Source: an uncultured Chloroflexota bacterium
GTDB taxonomy: Bacteria; Chloroflexota; Anaerolineae; Anaerolineales; Anaerolineaceae
Assembly (NCBI GenBank): GCA_902774215.1
Contig: CACYHU010000054.1
Location: 1 to 64,000 of the forward strand
Reading direction: 5' to 3'
Length of the DNA stretch: 64,000 nucleotides
A program made the translations under genes and the position numbers. The notes under the pieces were generated by a model. That model was not told where the DNA came from and ran no database searches. It saw only the letters and a list, made by a program, of their open reading frames with translations. How positions within the stretch are numbered: position 1 is the first letter of the stretch; each line of letters opens with the position of its first letter. Below are positions 18,038 to 59,831 of this stretch, one piece after another.

Positions 18038-18367
18038 ATGAAAAAGTTTTCCTTGGTATTTTTTGTTTTAATTATCAGCATGTTCTTTTCCGCTGCGGCA
18101 AATGCCGCGCCGGAGGATGTCACTCTGATACCATTGACCCGATATTATTCCAATAAGCAATGCTACGGATTTTATGATATGTGCGGAGAAAGCTCCTGGC
18201 TGGGGATGGTGTTCCATAACAATGGCACCGCGTCCGCATCGATCACATTTCCAGGATCAACGGAACAAGACATCCGATCGACAACCTTCGCTGCAGGGAA
18301 GTTCCTCAAAATATCACCAATTTCATCGGAATCCCGCTGGAAGGAACCGCTTTCAGCACTACTCTGA
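18038..18367 (+). CDS. Segment 1 of giant protein: signal peptide and N-terminus
   Basis: 109 codons in the first frame. A clear Sec signal peptide is followed by about 65 residues; the last 20 or so residues, after the GGGAAG run near 18300, are out of frame. The next segment's frame gives the better continuation (VPQNITNFIGIPLEGTAF). Confidence 0.6.
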   Translation: MKKFSLVFFVLIISMFFSAAANAAPEDVTLIPLTRYYSNKQCYGFYDMCGESSWLGMVFHNNGTASASITFPGSTEQDIRSTTFAAGKFLKISPISSESRWKEPLSALL

Positions 18368-18369
18368 AT

Positions 18370-19479
18370 TTGCCATCGAATAAAACCTACGCGGTTTTCT
18401 TTGATATTCACAACATCGAACAGTATGCAGCACAGTGGAATACGGATGTATACTTTTCCGTTATGATCACATCCGCCGGAATCTCTGCTGAAAAAAGCAT
18501 CAACGGCCCGATTTCGCAGCGGGGAAACAGCAGCTGTTCGCCGGATCAGGTTTGTAAAGCCACTATCCTGGGAGGCAGCTACACTGCTGACGGAAACGGT
18601 ACCGTAACGGTCAACGTCAAAAACGACATGCCAATGACCACACAGGTTGAAGGGAAAGGTGACGTTTTCGTCGCATGGACAGATCCATCAGGGGCAGAAC
18701 AAACCAAAAATCTGGAAAATGCTGTAACATGGAACCAAAATCCCGGCTGGATGGTAAGCGGAGATAATAAGACCGTGACCGGCACTTTCAGGCTTCCGGC
18801 AGAAATAACGTCCGGCAACAACGCACTGACCCTGGCCTTTCATTTCTGTCATCCCTCAAGTTTGTCTTTCGGAGATTTTTACGCACAGGGAAAACTTTTC
18901 TCAACCAGCGGGCTGCATGGTACGGTAAGCGGTAACTATGATACAAACGGCAGAAACGGCGTATTCAAAGCAGTCATATACAATTCTCAGAGCAAAGCTG
19001 TTTCAATTACATTGCCGCAGGAAGGAAAAGTCATTGATGCATCCGGAAAATCATCTGCAGTCACACTGACATGGAAGAATGCAGGACCGGTGAGTATTAC
19101 TGCACAGGGGAGTGCTACTCTGGATGGTACATTCATTTTCAATGACACGGGGTTGATCCACAACAACAGCTCTCTGATCCTCTCGGTCAATCTGACAGCG
19201 GAAGACAGTACCGGAACCGCTGCAGGAACCGTCACACGGAACCCCGATCCTAATCCAACACTCAAAGCAACAGGTGATTTCTGCAGAGATTATACTGCAG
19301 GCAGCAGTGAGATGAGCTTCAGCTATTCAAAAGTGAAGCGAACATCGATCTGCAGGTTGAACTCGCCACAACACTGCATATCAGCGGACAGACAGCAAAT
19401 CCCAAAATCACTTATACCGGCTGTCAAAACGGAGGCGTTTCCTGCATCAATAAAATCACCAAAGGCATCTATACGATAG
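18370..19479 (+). CDS. Segment 2 of giant protein
   Basis: 369 codons from an apparent TTG that is really internal; protein-like sequence already begins near 18300 in this frame. It holds beta-rich domains with CxxxC-type pairs (SSCSPDQVC) and the start of the first 120-residue repeat (DFCRDYTAG). It leaves frame at the A-run at about 19330; the last ~50 residues are spurious. Confidence 0.55.
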   Translation: MPSNKTYAVFFDIHNIEQYAAQWNTDVYFSVMITSAGISAEKSINGPISQRGNSSCSPDQVCKATILGGSYTADGNGTVTVNVKNDMPMTTQVEGKGDVFVAWTDPSGAEQTKNLENAVTWNQNPGWMVSGDNKTVTGTFRLPAEITSGNNALTLAFHFCHPSSLSFGDFYAQGKLFSTSGLHGTVSGNYDTNGRNGVFKAVIYNSQSKAVSITLPQEGKVIDASGKSSAVTLTWKNAGPVSITAQGSATLDGTFIFNDTGLIHNNSSLILSVNLTAEDSTGTAAGTVTRNPDPNPTLKATGDFCRDYTAGSSEMSFSYSKVKRTSICRLNSPQHCISADRQQIPKSLIPAVKTEAFPASIKSPKASIR

Positions 19480-22050
19480 GACCGGGTGAAACTGCGACCT
19501 TCTCCGGCAAGGTAAGTCTTGTAAATCCTTATCCGGCAGCAGACGCATTTGCCGAAACCTCACTGCGTTATTTCGCTGACAGCGAAAGCAGGGTGGTTTA
19601 CATCGGAAAAACCACAAACAGCTGTTCTGTCCAGCCATCCCCGGCAACACCGGAACCGCCGAAAATCGAGCTGACATCTGATGGTTTATGTAAAATCTAT
19701 ACCAAAGGCAGCAATAAAATCGGATTCCAGTACACACTGACGAATGAAAGCGGCAATACGATCCCGGTTGAGCTCGCCGGCACGCTTGGGGTTGAAGGCC
19801 AGTCAGACACAGTTGTGATCACATATACCGCCTGTAAAGCAGGAGCAGAATCCTGTATGGATCGGATCAAAAACGGGAAAGAATTCGAATTGAAAGCCGG
19901 TGAAACCGCCACGTTTACCGGAGAATCTACAATGAAGGCAATCCCGGCCGGTGAGGATTTCAGCATCCGTACATCACTCCTCTATTTCCCGAACGGAGAA
20001 AGAAAAGCACTTTTCGTCGGTGAAAGCAGTAAATCCTGCGCCGGAACACCGGTAGATCCGGATCCTGTTACCCCGGATCTCACTACAGTTCAGTTCTGCC
20101 GCAGTTACAATGGAGGCAATAAACTTGATTTCCGTTATACATTGCAGAACAATACCAAAACTGATATTGTTTTACAGCTTGCCAGGACAATGGCAGTAGA
20201 GGGACAAACTGAAAACGCATCCATCAAATATACCGGATGTACCATTGCCGGAGAAAACTGTGCCATTACCGGTGAAAAATTTACGATTCAGGCAGGCAAG
20301 ACAGTTGTATTCAGCGGCAATGCTGTCCTAAAGGAAGCGCCTTCCAAAACGGACTTCTATGTATATACATCCCTTATTTACACTATTAACGGGACATCGA
20401 AGGTTTACAGTATCGGCCGGTCAGTTTCAAGTGATGGCTGCGCAGCTGTTCCTGTTGACCCCGTACCGACAGATCTCACTATCACTTCCAACAGTTTCTA
20501 CCGCACCTATGATGCAGCAAACGGAAAGGTGATTTTCACCTACACACTGGTTAATAACAATGATGTCGCGATCCCGGTCGATCTGGCCAGAACAATTGCA
20601 GTTGACGGACAGGACAGGACACTGCCGGTAAAATACACTGCATGCATTGATGACTACGGCTATGATTGTATAGAAAGGATCCATGATTTTGCTTTCACAC
20701 TCAGTGCAAAAGATACCGCTGAGTTTACCGGTGAGATCAGTCTTGCCAAAGCACCGGTCAACACTGATTTCTGGATCTATACATCCCTGGTCTACACACC
20801 GAACGGAATCCAGAAGATACTTGATTTAGGCAAAACACAAACAGATATTCCAGGCGGTGAGGATGAACCTGAACCGCCCGTGATTGACCTTACAGCTTCC
20901 GGTCTTTGCCGTGATTATACAAAAGGCAGCAGGAATATTCTGGTCCGGTATACACTTAAAAATGACTCGGAATCCGAGATCCCGGTAGAACTGGCCACCA
21001 CTCTTGCCGTGGAGGGACAGACATCAAACAGCAGGATCACCTATACCGACTGTAAGATCGGAGTAAATTCCTGCTATAACCGCATTACAAATCAAAATGA
21101 AATCACACTTGCTCCGGGAGAAGAAGCTGTTTTCACGGGGAAAGCTGTTTTGAATACGATCCCTCAAAATACAGAATTCAAAGTTCACACCTCCCTTATC
21201 TATTATGCAGATAAAGTACGGAAAGCTCTTTTCATAGGTGAAAGCAAAGCCGTATGCACTGCTGTACAGCCCGGCGATGAAACTGCAAAAGCTGATCTTA
21301 TCAGAGTCAGTTTCTGCCGCACTGACATGGGGAACGGGAAGATCGCAATCCAATACGGTCTGCAGAACAATACAGGATCAGACATCATTTTACAGCTCGC
21401 AAAAACTTTGGCAGTAAAAGGTCTCCAGGGTACCTGGCCGATTCGATATATAAGCTGCACCGCAGCTTCAAACAGGACCTGCAGCATCACAGGAGAAAAC
21501 TTCACACTCAAAGCAGGTGAAACTATCCACTTTAACGGTGAAGCTTCTGTATCGGGCAAACTTCCGTCAGCAGATTTTATTGTAAGCACATCTCTGGTTT
21601 ATACCATTGACGGTACAACAAAATCATACTATATCGGTGAAACGGGCTCCAAATGTGGATCGATTCCTGTTGTTCCGGTCCCGACTGATCTGGTCATCAC
21701 CTCAGAGGGGTTCTGCCGTGATCTCAGCGCAGACAAATCCAAAGTGACATTTACCTATACGCTCAAAAATGAGACCGGCATTAACATTCCTGTTGAGCTG
21801 GCCAAAACTTTGGCAGCCGACGGCCAGAGCAGAACACTGCCCATTACTTATACCAAATGTGTAAGCAATAACGCCGGCATCTGCACCGGCCGCATCAATG
21901 GATACAACATCATATTGCAGGCGGGTGAAACAGCAGCATTCAGCGGTGAAGCCATTCTCGAAAAAGCGGTCATCAATGATGATTTTAAGGTTTACACATC
22001 GCTGATTTACACGCCGAACAGTATCCGCAAGATTTTGGATCTGGGGCTCT
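19265..22050 (+). repeat. Tandem 120-residue protein repeats (seven copies)
   Basis: Seven homologous units of about 360-375 bp, starting near 19265, 19662, 20080, 20470, 20883, 21291 and 21690. Units 2-3-4 correspond one to one with units 5-6-7 (for example RKALFVGES/RKALFIGES, CAITGEKF/CSITGENF, IQKILDLG/IRKILDLG), so a three-domain block of about 1.2 kb has been duplicated. Confidence 0.75.
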
Positions 22051-22097
22051 GCAAATCAGCCGCAAAATCCTGTCGACCAGTCACAGGCTGCAGCTAA
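19593..22097 (+). CDS. Segment 3 of giant protein: 120-residue repeats
   Basis: 834 codons from an internal GTG; true coding in this frame begins near 19335. It contains repeats 2-7 in full, each with the pattern FCRxY...YTLxN...IPVELAxTLAVEGQ...ITYTxC...C...AGETAxFTG...TSLIYxxNGxRKxLxxG. The last ~17 residues after the G-run at 22044 are out of frame. Confidence 0.65.
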   Translation: MVYIGKTTNSCSVQPSPATPEPPKIELTSDGLCKIYTKGSNKIGFQYTLTNESGNTIPVELAGTLGVEGQSDTVVITYTACKAGAESCMDRIKNGKEFELKAGETATFTGESTMKAIPAGEDFSIRTSLLYFPNGERKALFVGESSKSCAGTPVDPDPVTPDLTTVQFCRSYNGGNKLDFRYTLQNNTKTDIVLQLARTMAVEGQTENASIKYTGCTIAGENCAITGEKFTIQAGKTVVFSGNAVLKEAPSKTDFYVYTSLIYTINGTSKVYSIGRSVSSDGCAAVPVDPVPTDLTITSNSFYRTYDAANGKVIFTYTLVNNNDVAIPVDLARTIAVDGQDRTLPVKYTACIDDYGYDCIERIHDFAFTLSAKDTAEFTGEISLAKAPVNTDFWIYTSLVYTPNGIQKILDLGKTQTDIPGGEDEPEPPVIDLTASGLCRDYTKGSRNILVRYTLKNDSESEIPVELATTLAVEGQTSNSRITYTDCKIGVNSCYNRITNQNEITLAPGEEAVFTGKAVLNTIPQNTEFKVHTSLIYYADKVRKALFIGESKAVCTAVQPGDETAKADLIRVSFCRTDMGNGKIAIQYGLQNNTGSDIILQLAKTLAVKGLQGTWPIRYISCTAASNRTCSITGENFTLKAGETIHFNGEASVSGKLPSADFIVSTSLVYTIDGTTKSYYIGETGSKCGSIPVVPVPTDLVITSEGFCRDLSADKSKVTFTYTLKNETGINIPVELAKTLAADGQSRTLPITYTKCVSNNAGICTGRINGYNIILQAGETAAFSGEAILEKAVINDDFKVYTSLIYTPNSIRKILDLGLCKSAAKSCRPVTGCS

Positions 22098-22164
22098 TCT
22101 GGAGCTTTCCACACCTTCCGGTTATTACAGCATCTGCGGCAGTGACAACGCGCTTCATTTCACG

Positions 22165-23508
22165 ATGAAGATCCGAAACAGCGGGACGAAGACCGGCTAT
22201 GCAGATCTCTCTTCAATGAGTTTCGCTCTGAATGGAAATGACATTCCGGCAAGTTCAATCAGCTTCGACAGCTGTGCGGAATCCTCTGTGAGCGGAACCA
22301 ATGCAATGCGCTGCACAAAGGAACTTCCCACGGGCAGAATTTCGATCGATCCCGATGTTACGATGAGCATTAACATCTCTTATCCTTATCGGCCGGCTCA
22401 AATAATAAGTGGAAATTCCGTGAATGTCAGCGTCCGGGCAGCCGGAATGACACCTTCGTCAACAAGCTTCACTGCTTCTGCCGCCGGATCTGCCTGTTCA
22501 GCCGCCTGTTCAGCCCGTGTGGAAGCAGTTACTGACAATAACGGAGAAGCGGTCCACACCAATGTATCCGCGTTGAAAAACGTTGTTACCCTGACCATGC
22601 AATTTGTGAATACAGGTAATGAAGATGCCGTTATCACACCGGCATCGATCAATCTGCATCAGAAAGTAATCGAAAACTATGAAGGGACACTGGATATATC
22701 GCCGATCAGCGGACAAACATCGGGAAAGGATCTGATGGTACTGGCAAACGGAACATCGTTCACACTTCCGGCCCTGTCTTCTGCTACGCTCAGTGTCAGC
22801 CTGAATGTGGATATGTCAGAAGCATTTACCAATAAGGCCATGATAAGCTGGACAATAAAAATTGATAATTCCACGAAAAACTATACAGGAACTGTTAATT
22901 TTGCCCAGAGTAGCCCGGCTCCGGAAATCAATCCAATCGTTCCGTCAGGTAATGATCGTCTGAGTTTCTTTGCTCTGGGAGAACCGCAGCTGCCTGAAAA
23001 ACTGCCTGCAACCGGATTCCCGACACATGGACAGCATAAACCCTCATCCATTCAGCCTGCGCATCTGGCTTATGAAGAGCTCAACGGGCTGCACATGGAG
23101 ATCCCTGTCCTGAATAAAGGTATGGATCTTGTACGCATCCCTCTGGATGACAACAATGAATGGGCGGTTGAATGGCTCAATGATAAAGCCGGCATTTTGA
23201 GCTACAGTAAAGTTCCGGGAGAGGGGACATCGATCATCGCGGGACATAACCATCTTGACGAAATGAATGTCGGGCCGTTCCTGATGCTCTGGCAGCTGGA
23301 AAACAACGACCGCATCTTTATCACTGATGACGATGGAGAGTTCCTGATGTACTCTGTTTATGCGAATGAGCTTATCAATCCGACAGACAGTGCACTGATC
23401 TATCAGAAAGCGATCCCGGGATCTCTCGTCCTGCTGACCTGTGAGAATGAAATGCCGGAAGGCGGTTACGCGTATCGGCGCGCAGTATTTGCCGAACCGC
23501 TTCAGTAA
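22165..23508 (+). CDS. Segment 4 of giant protein: LPATGF motif and sortase domain
   Basis: 447 codons from an internal ATG; coding in this frame starts at about 22045 (GSANQPQNPVDQS). After a divergent beta domain comes a Pro-rich linker, LPATGF and a sortase domain of about 150 residues: EIPVLNKGMDLVRIP, GTSIIAGHNHLDEMNVGPF (His), LVLLTCENE (Cys) and YRRAVF (Arg). There is no TM segment or charged tail after the sortase domain, unlike a standard LPxTG sorting signal. Confidence 0.75.
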   Translation: MKIRNSGTKTGYADLSSMSFALNGNDIPASSISFDSCAESSVSGTNAMRCTKELPTGRISIDPDVTMSINISYPYRPAQIISGNSVNVSVRAAGMTPSSTSFTASAAGSACSAACSARVEAVTDNNGEAVHTNVSALKNVVTLTMQFVNTGNEDAVITPASINLHQKVIENYEGTLDISPISGQTSGKDLMVLANGTSFTLPALSSATLSVSLNVDMSEAFTNKAMISWTIKIDNSTKNYTGTVNFAQSSPAPEINPIVPSGNDRLSFFALGEPQLPEKLPATGFPTHGQHKPSSIQPAHLAYEELNGLHMEIPVLNKGMDLVRIPLDDNNEWAVEWLNDKAGILSYSKVPGEGTSIIAGHNHLDEMNVGPFLMLWQLENNDRIFITDDDGEFLMYSVYANELINPTDSALIYQKAIPGSLVLLTCENEMPEGGYAYRRAVFAEPLQ

Positions 23509-57611: not shown

Positions 57612-59831
57612 ATGAACAGAAGAATTGATATTACTTATGCCGCGGAGGATGTCAACGAAACAGTTGTCATCGAGGCAAATGCGATTAATGGAGATCAAAC
57701 CATAACTATTGGGAATGTAACCACGGATGAGTTTGGTGTTTATGTCGGATCCGAAGATGGATTCAGTGCTGATGTCAGTACGGAAAACGTGACAGTTATA
57801 AAACCGGAGTATGCGCAGGCAGCTTATGGCCTTGTGGTTGAATCCATTGGAGCCAAATCCGTCTCAACCGTCAGGACCGGGGACATCATGACCGGATTGG
57901 AATGGGGAAACCAGGGGCTGATCATCCGGGCCACAAACAACAGCCACGCTGACCTCATAACCGGGAACGTCACCGGCTGGACGGGAATCATTGCCGTATC
58001 TGATAATGCGTCATCGATTCATATGGAAACCGGTGATGTTACCGGAACACAATTGGGCAGTCAATTAAACAGTCTGAATGGCGGACAACTCGACGCAAAA
58101 ACCGGGACAATTACCACGGAAGCGGAAGCTCTCAGTGCCGGTGCCGAGAGTGGCGGCAGAATAGAGCTGACCACCACCGATATAACCTCAGAAAAATCCG
58201 GTGCGTTGTATGGTTCCTCAACAGGGCAGAATTCATCAGTCACTGTTAATGCCGGTAATCTCAGCGGAGCGTCAGGCGCGATCCGCATCATGGCTGCAGA
58301 CGGGGGTGAATATTATGTGCGGGCAAAAGGACTGACCATCAAAGATTCGGGGTGGGAATATTTGAACAGATATGGCATAGACAGCCTGACATCAGCGGGA
58401 ACATCTTCAATCGAATTGAGCGGAGGAATCTCGCTCACAGAAACAGGGGCTGAAGGAGAAGGGTCTCCGGCAGGGATTCGTATCCGGTCTGAAAAAAGCG
58501 GCAGCACGGGTATCTATGTGGCTGCCAATATTCATGTCAATTCAGAAAAAACAGAGGCAGCTGCTTACGGTATAACAGCGGAAAATGCCGGCGGAATAGT
58601 AATTGTTGTCGTGGAAGGAGATGTATCGGCTGCCTCCACGGGACCGGCGATCGGGGTGAATATAATCAACAATTCGAACGTGGCTAATGACAGCAGTTTT
58701 CAGACTTTCTACAGCCACGCCAATGAGGTTTTTCCGGAAAACTACAACTCGTATTCAGACAAAGCTGCTTCTGTGAACGCAGGCGCGATTGAAAGCGATA
58801 TTATCATCAAAGGCGACCTCAGCGGTACAACTTATGGATTATCAGTTCAGCCGGAAGGGGAGTCTTCAGCCGATGTTTTTATCGGCGGGACGCTCTCGGG
58901 CGGGACTGACGCTGTTCTGGTCAGCGAAGATGCTTCTCCGGAAAATTTTGTCCTGACCGCATGGAAGATCATACCGAATAATAACGGGCACATGGTTGTT
59001 AAAACGGATGGCAGTGCCGCGGAAAATATCGAAGGTGCGGTCAGATACATCATCAAGACCACACCCGGTTCACAGGAAAAACTGTTCCTGACCTATGAAA
59101 ACGGTGAAAAACTGCAAATCATCAACGCGTACCCTGTGGCAGCAGAGGGAGAGCGGGTTTATCTCCATCCGGCTGCCGGGTATTCCATCTCTGCGGCATA
59201 TAACAACGGCGAGCCTCTGGAACGTGACAGTGAGGGCAGATTTTATCTCTTAATCCCGAAGGCCGGCGGAGTGATGCTTTCCGCAGAAACGGGACAGGTT
59301 GTTGACTTCCATCGTTTTTTAAACAATGAAGGAAAACTGCCGGCTGCGGGTTTTTCTTCGCGTTCCATCTCTCCGATCCCGCTGCGCCCAAAGGGAATTG
59401 CCTGCGGCAGTACCGATCTGACGCTGCAGATTCCCTCCCTTGACGTGATGGAATCCGTTGTAGCGGTCCGGATGATGGATGGAGATTATCCTGTAGAATG
59501 TCTGGGAAGGAATATCGGTCTTTTGGAATCCTCCGCGCTGCCGGGGGAAGGTCTGAGCGTCATCGTCGGACACAATCATCTGAATACAGCTGAGGCGGGG
59601 CCTTTTCTATTCCTCGGCACACTGGTATCAGGAGATAAAATCCTGATCACAGACCGGTCAGAAAAGATACAGATTTTCCAGGTATACGCCAACGTTCTCA
59701 TCGATGCAGACGATTTTTCAGACATGCTGGAAATACTTACAGAAAATACGCTGGTTCTCCTCACCTGTGAGGATGAATCCCCGGACGGAGCATATCTTCA
59801 CCGCAGAGTTATCCTCGCGGAACGGAAATAA
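57612..59831 (+). CDS. Surface repeat protein with LPAAGF motif and C-terminal sortase domain
   Basis: 739 residues. The first ~560 residues are Gly/Ser/Thr-rich, beta-helix-like repeats (phrases such as ETGDVTGT, AGNLSGASGAI, IIKGDLSGTTYG). LPAAGF near residue 578 is followed by a sortase domain: LQIPSLDVMESVVAVR, LSVIVGHNHLN (His), LVLLTCEDE (Cys) and HRRVILAE (Arg), closely like the domain of the giant protein. SD AAAGGA before the ATG. Oddly there is no signal peptide, and a stop lies just upstream in frame, so the N-terminus may be lost or the start misread. Confidence 0.82.
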   Translation: MNRRIDITYAAEDVNETVVIEANAINGDQTITIGNVTTDEFGVYVGSEDGFSADVSTENVTVIKPEYAQAAYGLVVESIGAKSVSTVRTGDIMTGLEWGNQGLIIRATNNSHADLITGNVTGWTGIIAVSDNASSIHMETGDVTGTQLGSQLNSLNGGQLDAKTGTITTEAEALSAGAESGGRIELTTTDITSEKSGALYGSSTGQNSSVTVNAGNLSGASGAIRIMAADGGEYYVRAKGLTIKDSGWEYLNRYGIDSLTSAGTSSIELSGGISLTETGAEGEGSPAGIRIRSEKSGSTGIYVAANIHVNSEKTEAAAYGITAENAGGIVIVVVEGDVSAASTGPAIGVNIINNSNVANDSSFQTFYSHANEVFPENYNSYSDKAASVNAGAIESDIIIKGDLSGTTYGLSVQPEGESSADVFIGGTLSGGTDAVLVSEDASPENFVLTAWKIIPNNNGHMVVKTDGSAAENIEGAVRYIIKTTPGSQEKLFLTYENGEKLQIINAYPVAAEGERVYLHPAAGYSISAAYNNGEPLERDSEGRFYLLIPKAGGVMLSAETGQVVDFHRFLNNEGKLPAAGFSSRSISPIPLRPKGIACGSTDLTLQIPSLDVMESVVAVRMMDGDYPVECLGRNIGLLESSALPGEGLSVIVGHNHLNTAEAGPFLFLGTLVSGDKILITDRSEKIQIFQVYANVLIDADDFSDMLEILTENTLVLLTCEDESPDGAYLHRRVILAERK

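Follow-up and report, generated by a model that had tools for sequence, protein, structure and literature searches.

Surface display by sortases is usually divided between two kinds of gene, one sortase serving many LPxTG substrates. The substrates described by the Pfam sorting signal PF00746 are exported surface proteins with LPxTG near the C-terminus, followed by a transmembrane segment (TM) and a positively charged tail, and the canonical membrane-anchored sortase carries its own N- or C-terminal TM beside the catalytic domain. The class C pilin sortases, among them C. diphtheriae SrtA and S. pneumoniae SrtC-1, share the sortase barrel and its His/Cys/Arg active site and bear an N-terminal lid, anchored by D81/W83 in the former and D58/W60 in the latter, which blocks the active site (PMC5640630, PMC9126251). 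Enzyme and motif have also been joined in one chain by engineering (Mao; BISOP, PMC2901362), and such sortase–LPxTG fusions self-cleave and thereby free their target (PMC2901362).

The locus described here resembles the engineered fusions in having both parts in one chain, but it occurs naturally and is conserved across an order, and its target is N-terminal where the man-made constructs place the sortase there. Within the window, that is, the whole 64,000-nucleotide stretch of DNA that was analysed, the ORF at 22165-23508 on the forward strand encodes an LPATGF motif and, in the same frame, a sortase domain (PF04203, residues 333-445, 54.6 bits against a Pfam cut-off of 26.6). The original prediction of a complete sortase, with its His, LLTCE Cys and RR, and with neither TM nor charged tail behind it, is borne out by the sequence and the Pfam match: the stop codon at 23506-23508 directly ends the sortase frame, no TM is found near or after the domain, and no charged tail follows it. 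In this the protein differs both from canonical sortases, which are anchored, and from PF00746 proteins, with which it shares LPxTG near the C-terminus and passenger types known from sortase substrates; here a sortase domain follows the motif, which lies about 165 residues from the end, and neither the window protein nor its genome has a PF00746 match. The features, including the upstream pieces placed with the help of two orthologues from related genomes (L089 and L088), are as follows.

18038..18253, forward strand: N-terminal piece in frame 2 with a Sec signal peptide, MKKFSLVFFVLIISMFFSAAANA, up to the first frameshift (tblastn, L089 residues 1-72, 78% identity)
18226..19350, forward strand: second piece, frame 1, N-terminal beta domains, up to the second frameshift (tblastn with L089, residues 74-443, and L088)
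19323..22046, forward strand: third piece, frame 3, tandem repeats of about 135 aa, up to the third frameshift (repeat spacing, repeat alignment, predicted all-beta domain)
22048..23508, forward strand: fourth piece, frame 1, with the last passenger domains, LPATGF, linker, sortase domain and stop (sequence, tblastn)
23002..23019, forward strand: LPATGF sorting motif, expected scissile bond Thr/Gly (sequence, pattern search, motif conservation)
23002..23016, forward strand: LPATG pentapeptide, an LPxTG of the PF00746 type
23161..23499, forward strand: sortase domain, PF04203 (Pfam match; AlphaFold pLDDT 93.1, pTM 0.90)
23245..23247, forward strand: catalytic His codon (GHNH), invariant in the alignments and in 162/162 motif-bearing sequences
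23440..23442, forward strand: catalytic Cys codon (LLTCE), invariant in 162/162
23476..23481, forward strand: catalytic Arg region (YRR), the first Arg being the conserved one, 159/162
57612..59831, forward strand: second fused gene, 739 aa, with motif LPAAGF at about 59337-59354 and sortase domain at 59424-59825

The upstream part of the gene is less orderly than had been supposed. A giant repeat protein running as one polypeptide from its signal peptide is not what the assembled sequence encodes; the pieces lie in different frames, and searches of L089 and L088 against the window by tblastn place three breaks near 18253, 19332-19350 and 22046. The repeats, put at about 120 residues, are in fact spaced at about 135 (405-411 nt and multiples); the unit is predicted to be all-beta (pLDDT 92), and nothing in the PDB matches it strongly (best E 5e-4). 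Both orthologues are intact single ORFs, of 1063 aa (L089) and 1307 aa (L088), and the downstream neighbours of L089 are those of the window gene, so that the window copy would be either a recent pseudogene or a carrier of assembly indels. Several other fused genes in the same genome have no recognisable N-terminus. Elsewhere in that genome lie tandem FemAB genes (contig C128, 7014-9024), one of them with an interrupting stop; the tandem hints that the peptidoglycan has an interpeptide bridge, and the stop hints at assembly indels. Together with the missing N-termini, this stop is compatible with assembly errors without proving them.

The arrangement is by no means confined to one gene, and the single-gene picture had missed, besides the three frameshifts, that this is one of some 41 such genes in the genome. 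A profile search finds 47 sortase domains there, of which about 41 form the C-terminal domain of a larger ORF with LPxTG[F/I] in front; in these fused proteins the motif again stands about 165 residues from the C-terminus. In a few fused copies the motif is missing because of a contig end or a truncated ORF, and one gene lies in two parts on different contigs. As stand-alone sortases the genome has L001, a near-identical pair (L003 and L004) and a weak class B-like match (L046). The pair (C163:955-1356 and C2:49508-49909) are sortase-like proteins of 191 aa with a signal peptide and without LPxTG. Another protein, of 1037 aa (L015, C23:50562-50879), is a fused sortase of a different type, whose upstream IPDTGL stands at another distance, and partial matches similar to it recur in other genomes of the genus.

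Conservation was assessed over 162 motif-bearing sequences taken from the source genome, from its genus and from further families of the order. In the motif, P and G are invariant (162/162 each), T is nearly so (160/162), L and F are frequent (143/161 and 146/162), and x is free. The LPAAGF of the second gene in the window, with Ala for Thr at the expected scissile position, is one of only two motifs with this exchange. All 162 keep the catalytic His and Cys, although part of the relatives were picked by a pattern that includes this Cys, so that this set is no independent evidence for its conservation, the own-genome and genome-search sets being unbiased there; in the Arg column three sequences depart, two by a gap and one by H. 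From the motif to the Thr-Cys of the active site there are mostly 141-144 residues, with a range of 133 to 149 across genus, family and order. Given these conserved residues and a nearly fixed spacing in more than 160 relatives, a chance motif is ruled out. Hydropathy peaks after the motif occur in 2 of 61 relatives and are marginal.

Separate substrates for these enzymes are conspicuous by their absence where they were sought. None of six genomes of the genus encodes a Gram_pos_anchor protein (PF00746, the LPXTG-TM-tail architecture), and in the order 7 of 301 genomes have PF00746 matches, all with marginal scores; controls were positive in both searches. Every in-frame LPxTGF[SPTA] site inspected in the source genome belongs to a fused gene. 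Candidate trans substrates among the remaining DNA matches were rejected as out of frame or otherwise implausible, within a pattern that passes over LPxTG sites lacking the following F and S/P/T/A.

The conserved motif, the nearly fixed spacing, the intact active site and the failure to find other substrates in the genus are best explained by a modular C-terminal self-sorting cassette that would cleave its own LPxT-Gly bond, a reading to which we assign a probability of roughly 0.6 on the grounds of sequence and structural modelling. The passenger would mostly be exported by the Sec route, and the sortase would fold after export. Its groove would then hold an LPxTG, either from the same chain or, just as well, from a neighbouring copy, at the place where the class C lid sits, and the Cys would attack the Thr-Gly bond to give a passenger-LPxT-enzyme acyl intermediate. 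An amine of the envelope would take over the passenger, and the sortase domain, now starting with Gly-Phe, would be set free. The acceptor is most plausibly a peptidoglycan cross-bridge amine, considering that the genome encodes PBP transpeptidases along with the tandem FemAB genes. As such, the self-sorting idea of the original prediction stands as the best-supported explanation, while we infer its cleavage step, its acceptor and its action in cis rather than on a neighbour.

Structure prediction gives the cassette a well-defined shape. AlphaFold, applied to 62 sequences, yields a sortase domain with pLDDT 93.1 and pTM 0.90, and sortases head both the Foldseek and the VIA-align results (Z up to 16.5). 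The earlier proposal had staked itself on a sortase barrel and on a motif kept in homologues of the fusion; the former is predicted with high confidence, and the latter holds across the 162 sequences. The LPATGFPTHG block is better ordered (pLDDT 86) than the ten residues before it (71). The alignment with lid-bearing class C sortases starts at model residue 1, whereas that with class A and E enzymes mostly starts only at residues 31-37. The alignments begin at residue 49 of S. pneumoniae SrtC-1 (2w1j) and residue 72 of C. diphtheriae SrtA (5k9a and 6bwe), which, if ungapped, would apparently bring the lid anchors onto model residues 10-12, where LPATG (11-15) begins; gaps could shift this correspondence. 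Thus the ordered motif apparently lies on the barrel where class C sortases have their active-site lid. An N-terminal segment may cover the active site in the manner of their lid; unlike those enzymes, the fusion would have LPxTGF in the place of the lid, lacks a TM, and makes the enzyme the C-terminal domain of its own presumed substrate. Assignment to a class by NCBIfam models was tried and rejected, as the class F, GN and C models all give weak matches far below cut-off (class C, 24.7 bits against 160; class F, 31.3 against 166).

This geometry lends itself to a different interpretation, in which LPxTGF is an uncleaved, substrate-mimicking lid comparable to the DPW/F lid of class C, over a sortase that acts on something else. 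An alignment that starts at residue 1, roughly where the lid lies, would suit it, and class C lids do block their active sites (PMC5640630, PMC9126251). We nonetheless regard it as unlikely: the pattern of conservation, with P and G invariant, T nearly so and x free, is that of a cleavable signal, the genus has yielded no other substrates, and the motif separates passenger from enzyme, exactly where cleavage would free the passenger.

The passengers themselves are diverse. They include papain-like and subtilisin-like proteases (subtilases), Big_2, Cna_B, FctA and cohesin domains, and one type that combines a metallo-beta-lactamase with BspA-type LRR; several of these domain types occur in known sortase substrates. 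By a simple hydropathy heuristic 43 of 61 ORFs have a signal peptide, and four ORFs have lipoprotein-type signals. A Pro-rich stretch often precedes LPxTGF, and a linker of about 25 residues leads to the sortase domain. The occurrence of pilin-type FctA and Cna_B domains in some passengers, the many copies per genome, and the fact that the best structural matches are pilin-polymerising class C sortases would all agree with sortases that work mainly between copies, cutting the LPxTG of a neighbour and joining it to a lysine of another copy to build polymers or cross-linked coats. Such a mode is improbable as the main one, however, since passengers that differ so widely, proteases included, are unlikely to share an acceptor lysine, and the near-fixed distance between motif and enzyme favours an intramolecular fit.

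That the stand-alone sortases (L001, L003/L004, L046) read LPxTGF and leave the fused domains auxiliary is very improbable: such enzymes do exist in the genome, and a strong stand-alone match recurs across the genus, but motif and fused domain coincide and all fused domains keep their catalytic residues, which would not be expected if these domains were dispensable, given dozens of paralogues per genome.

Returning to the self-sorting cassette, several points weigh against it. With the leaving group still tethered, religation would be favoured; the window copy is frameshifted as assembled; and a small lipoprotein subfamily without recognised passengers has no obvious need for self-sorting. This subfamily comprises fused sortases of about 340-420 aa with a lipobox from four genomes (L039 at C72:1800-2198, L148, L150 and L151), with LPxTG[I/F] and a motif-to-Cys spacing of 139 and without a recognised passenger domain; they are possibly membrane-anchored, trans-acting members.

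The cassette is widespread in the order. The named relatives are Flexilinea flocculi TC1 together with rumen, goat-gut and other MAGs, which makes the source of the window a Flexilinea-like genome of the Anaerolineaceae; within the genus, the number of sortase domains per genome ranges from 2 to 47. Within the family, matches occur in 80 of 147 genomes and in 34 of 40 genera; almost all of the matches listed start at the motif. In samples of the class and phylum, matches inside the order start at profile positions 3-9 and mostly belong to large ORFs, and those outside it mostly start at 26-36 and come from ORFs of 200-300 aa; the related sortases there are mostly stand-alone, and the stand-alone ones inspected are without the motif. 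Two of the genomes inspected outside the order, in f14 and f20, have the motif-bearing form. A few giant proteins with a C-terminal sortase and no LPxTG are also seen outside the order (L184-L190, families f49, f51 and f23), and these are probably separate fusion events. In a tree of 107 cores, whose root is arbitrary, nearly all motif-less rows fall in one group (support 87/94), the Flexilinea copies form one clade (100/100), and one motif-less f14 row stands among the fused ones. This grouping fits a history in which the motif-fused form arose once within the order and later expanded in Flexilinea.

A group of gut and sludge bacteria in the order Anaerolineales carries dozens of such secreted surface proteins, each of which probably cuts and anchors itself at the cell surface with no need of a separate enzyme. 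It is quite possible, and we put it forward tentatively, that in Anaerolineales the scheme of one sortase and many substrates has largely given way to a single-polypeptide, single-turnover cassette, in which each protein sheds its own sortase and LPxTG serves as both lid and substrate. The parts are known already; what is new is their fusion as an order-wide system. In public annotation the fused proteins presumably appear as 'sortase domain-containing' entries. The open literature that was searched holds no description of a natural sortase–substrate fusion. A recent survey confined its search for sorting motifs to the last 50 residues (PMC12617251), and surveys of this kind would miss a cassette whose motif lies about 165 residues from the C-terminus. 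If the self-sorting reading is true, it would represent a natural surface display system overlooked by routine LPXTG surveys, a testable answer to how proteins are held on the surface in members of a phylum whose cell envelope is under debate, and a compact module of natural origin for displaying proteins or building self-cleaving fusions. One further protein, from a goat-gut bacterium (L122:4204-6504), joins a cohesin domain and Big_2 repeats to the LPxTGF-sortase cassette, and is a possible surface-anchored cohesin scaffold.
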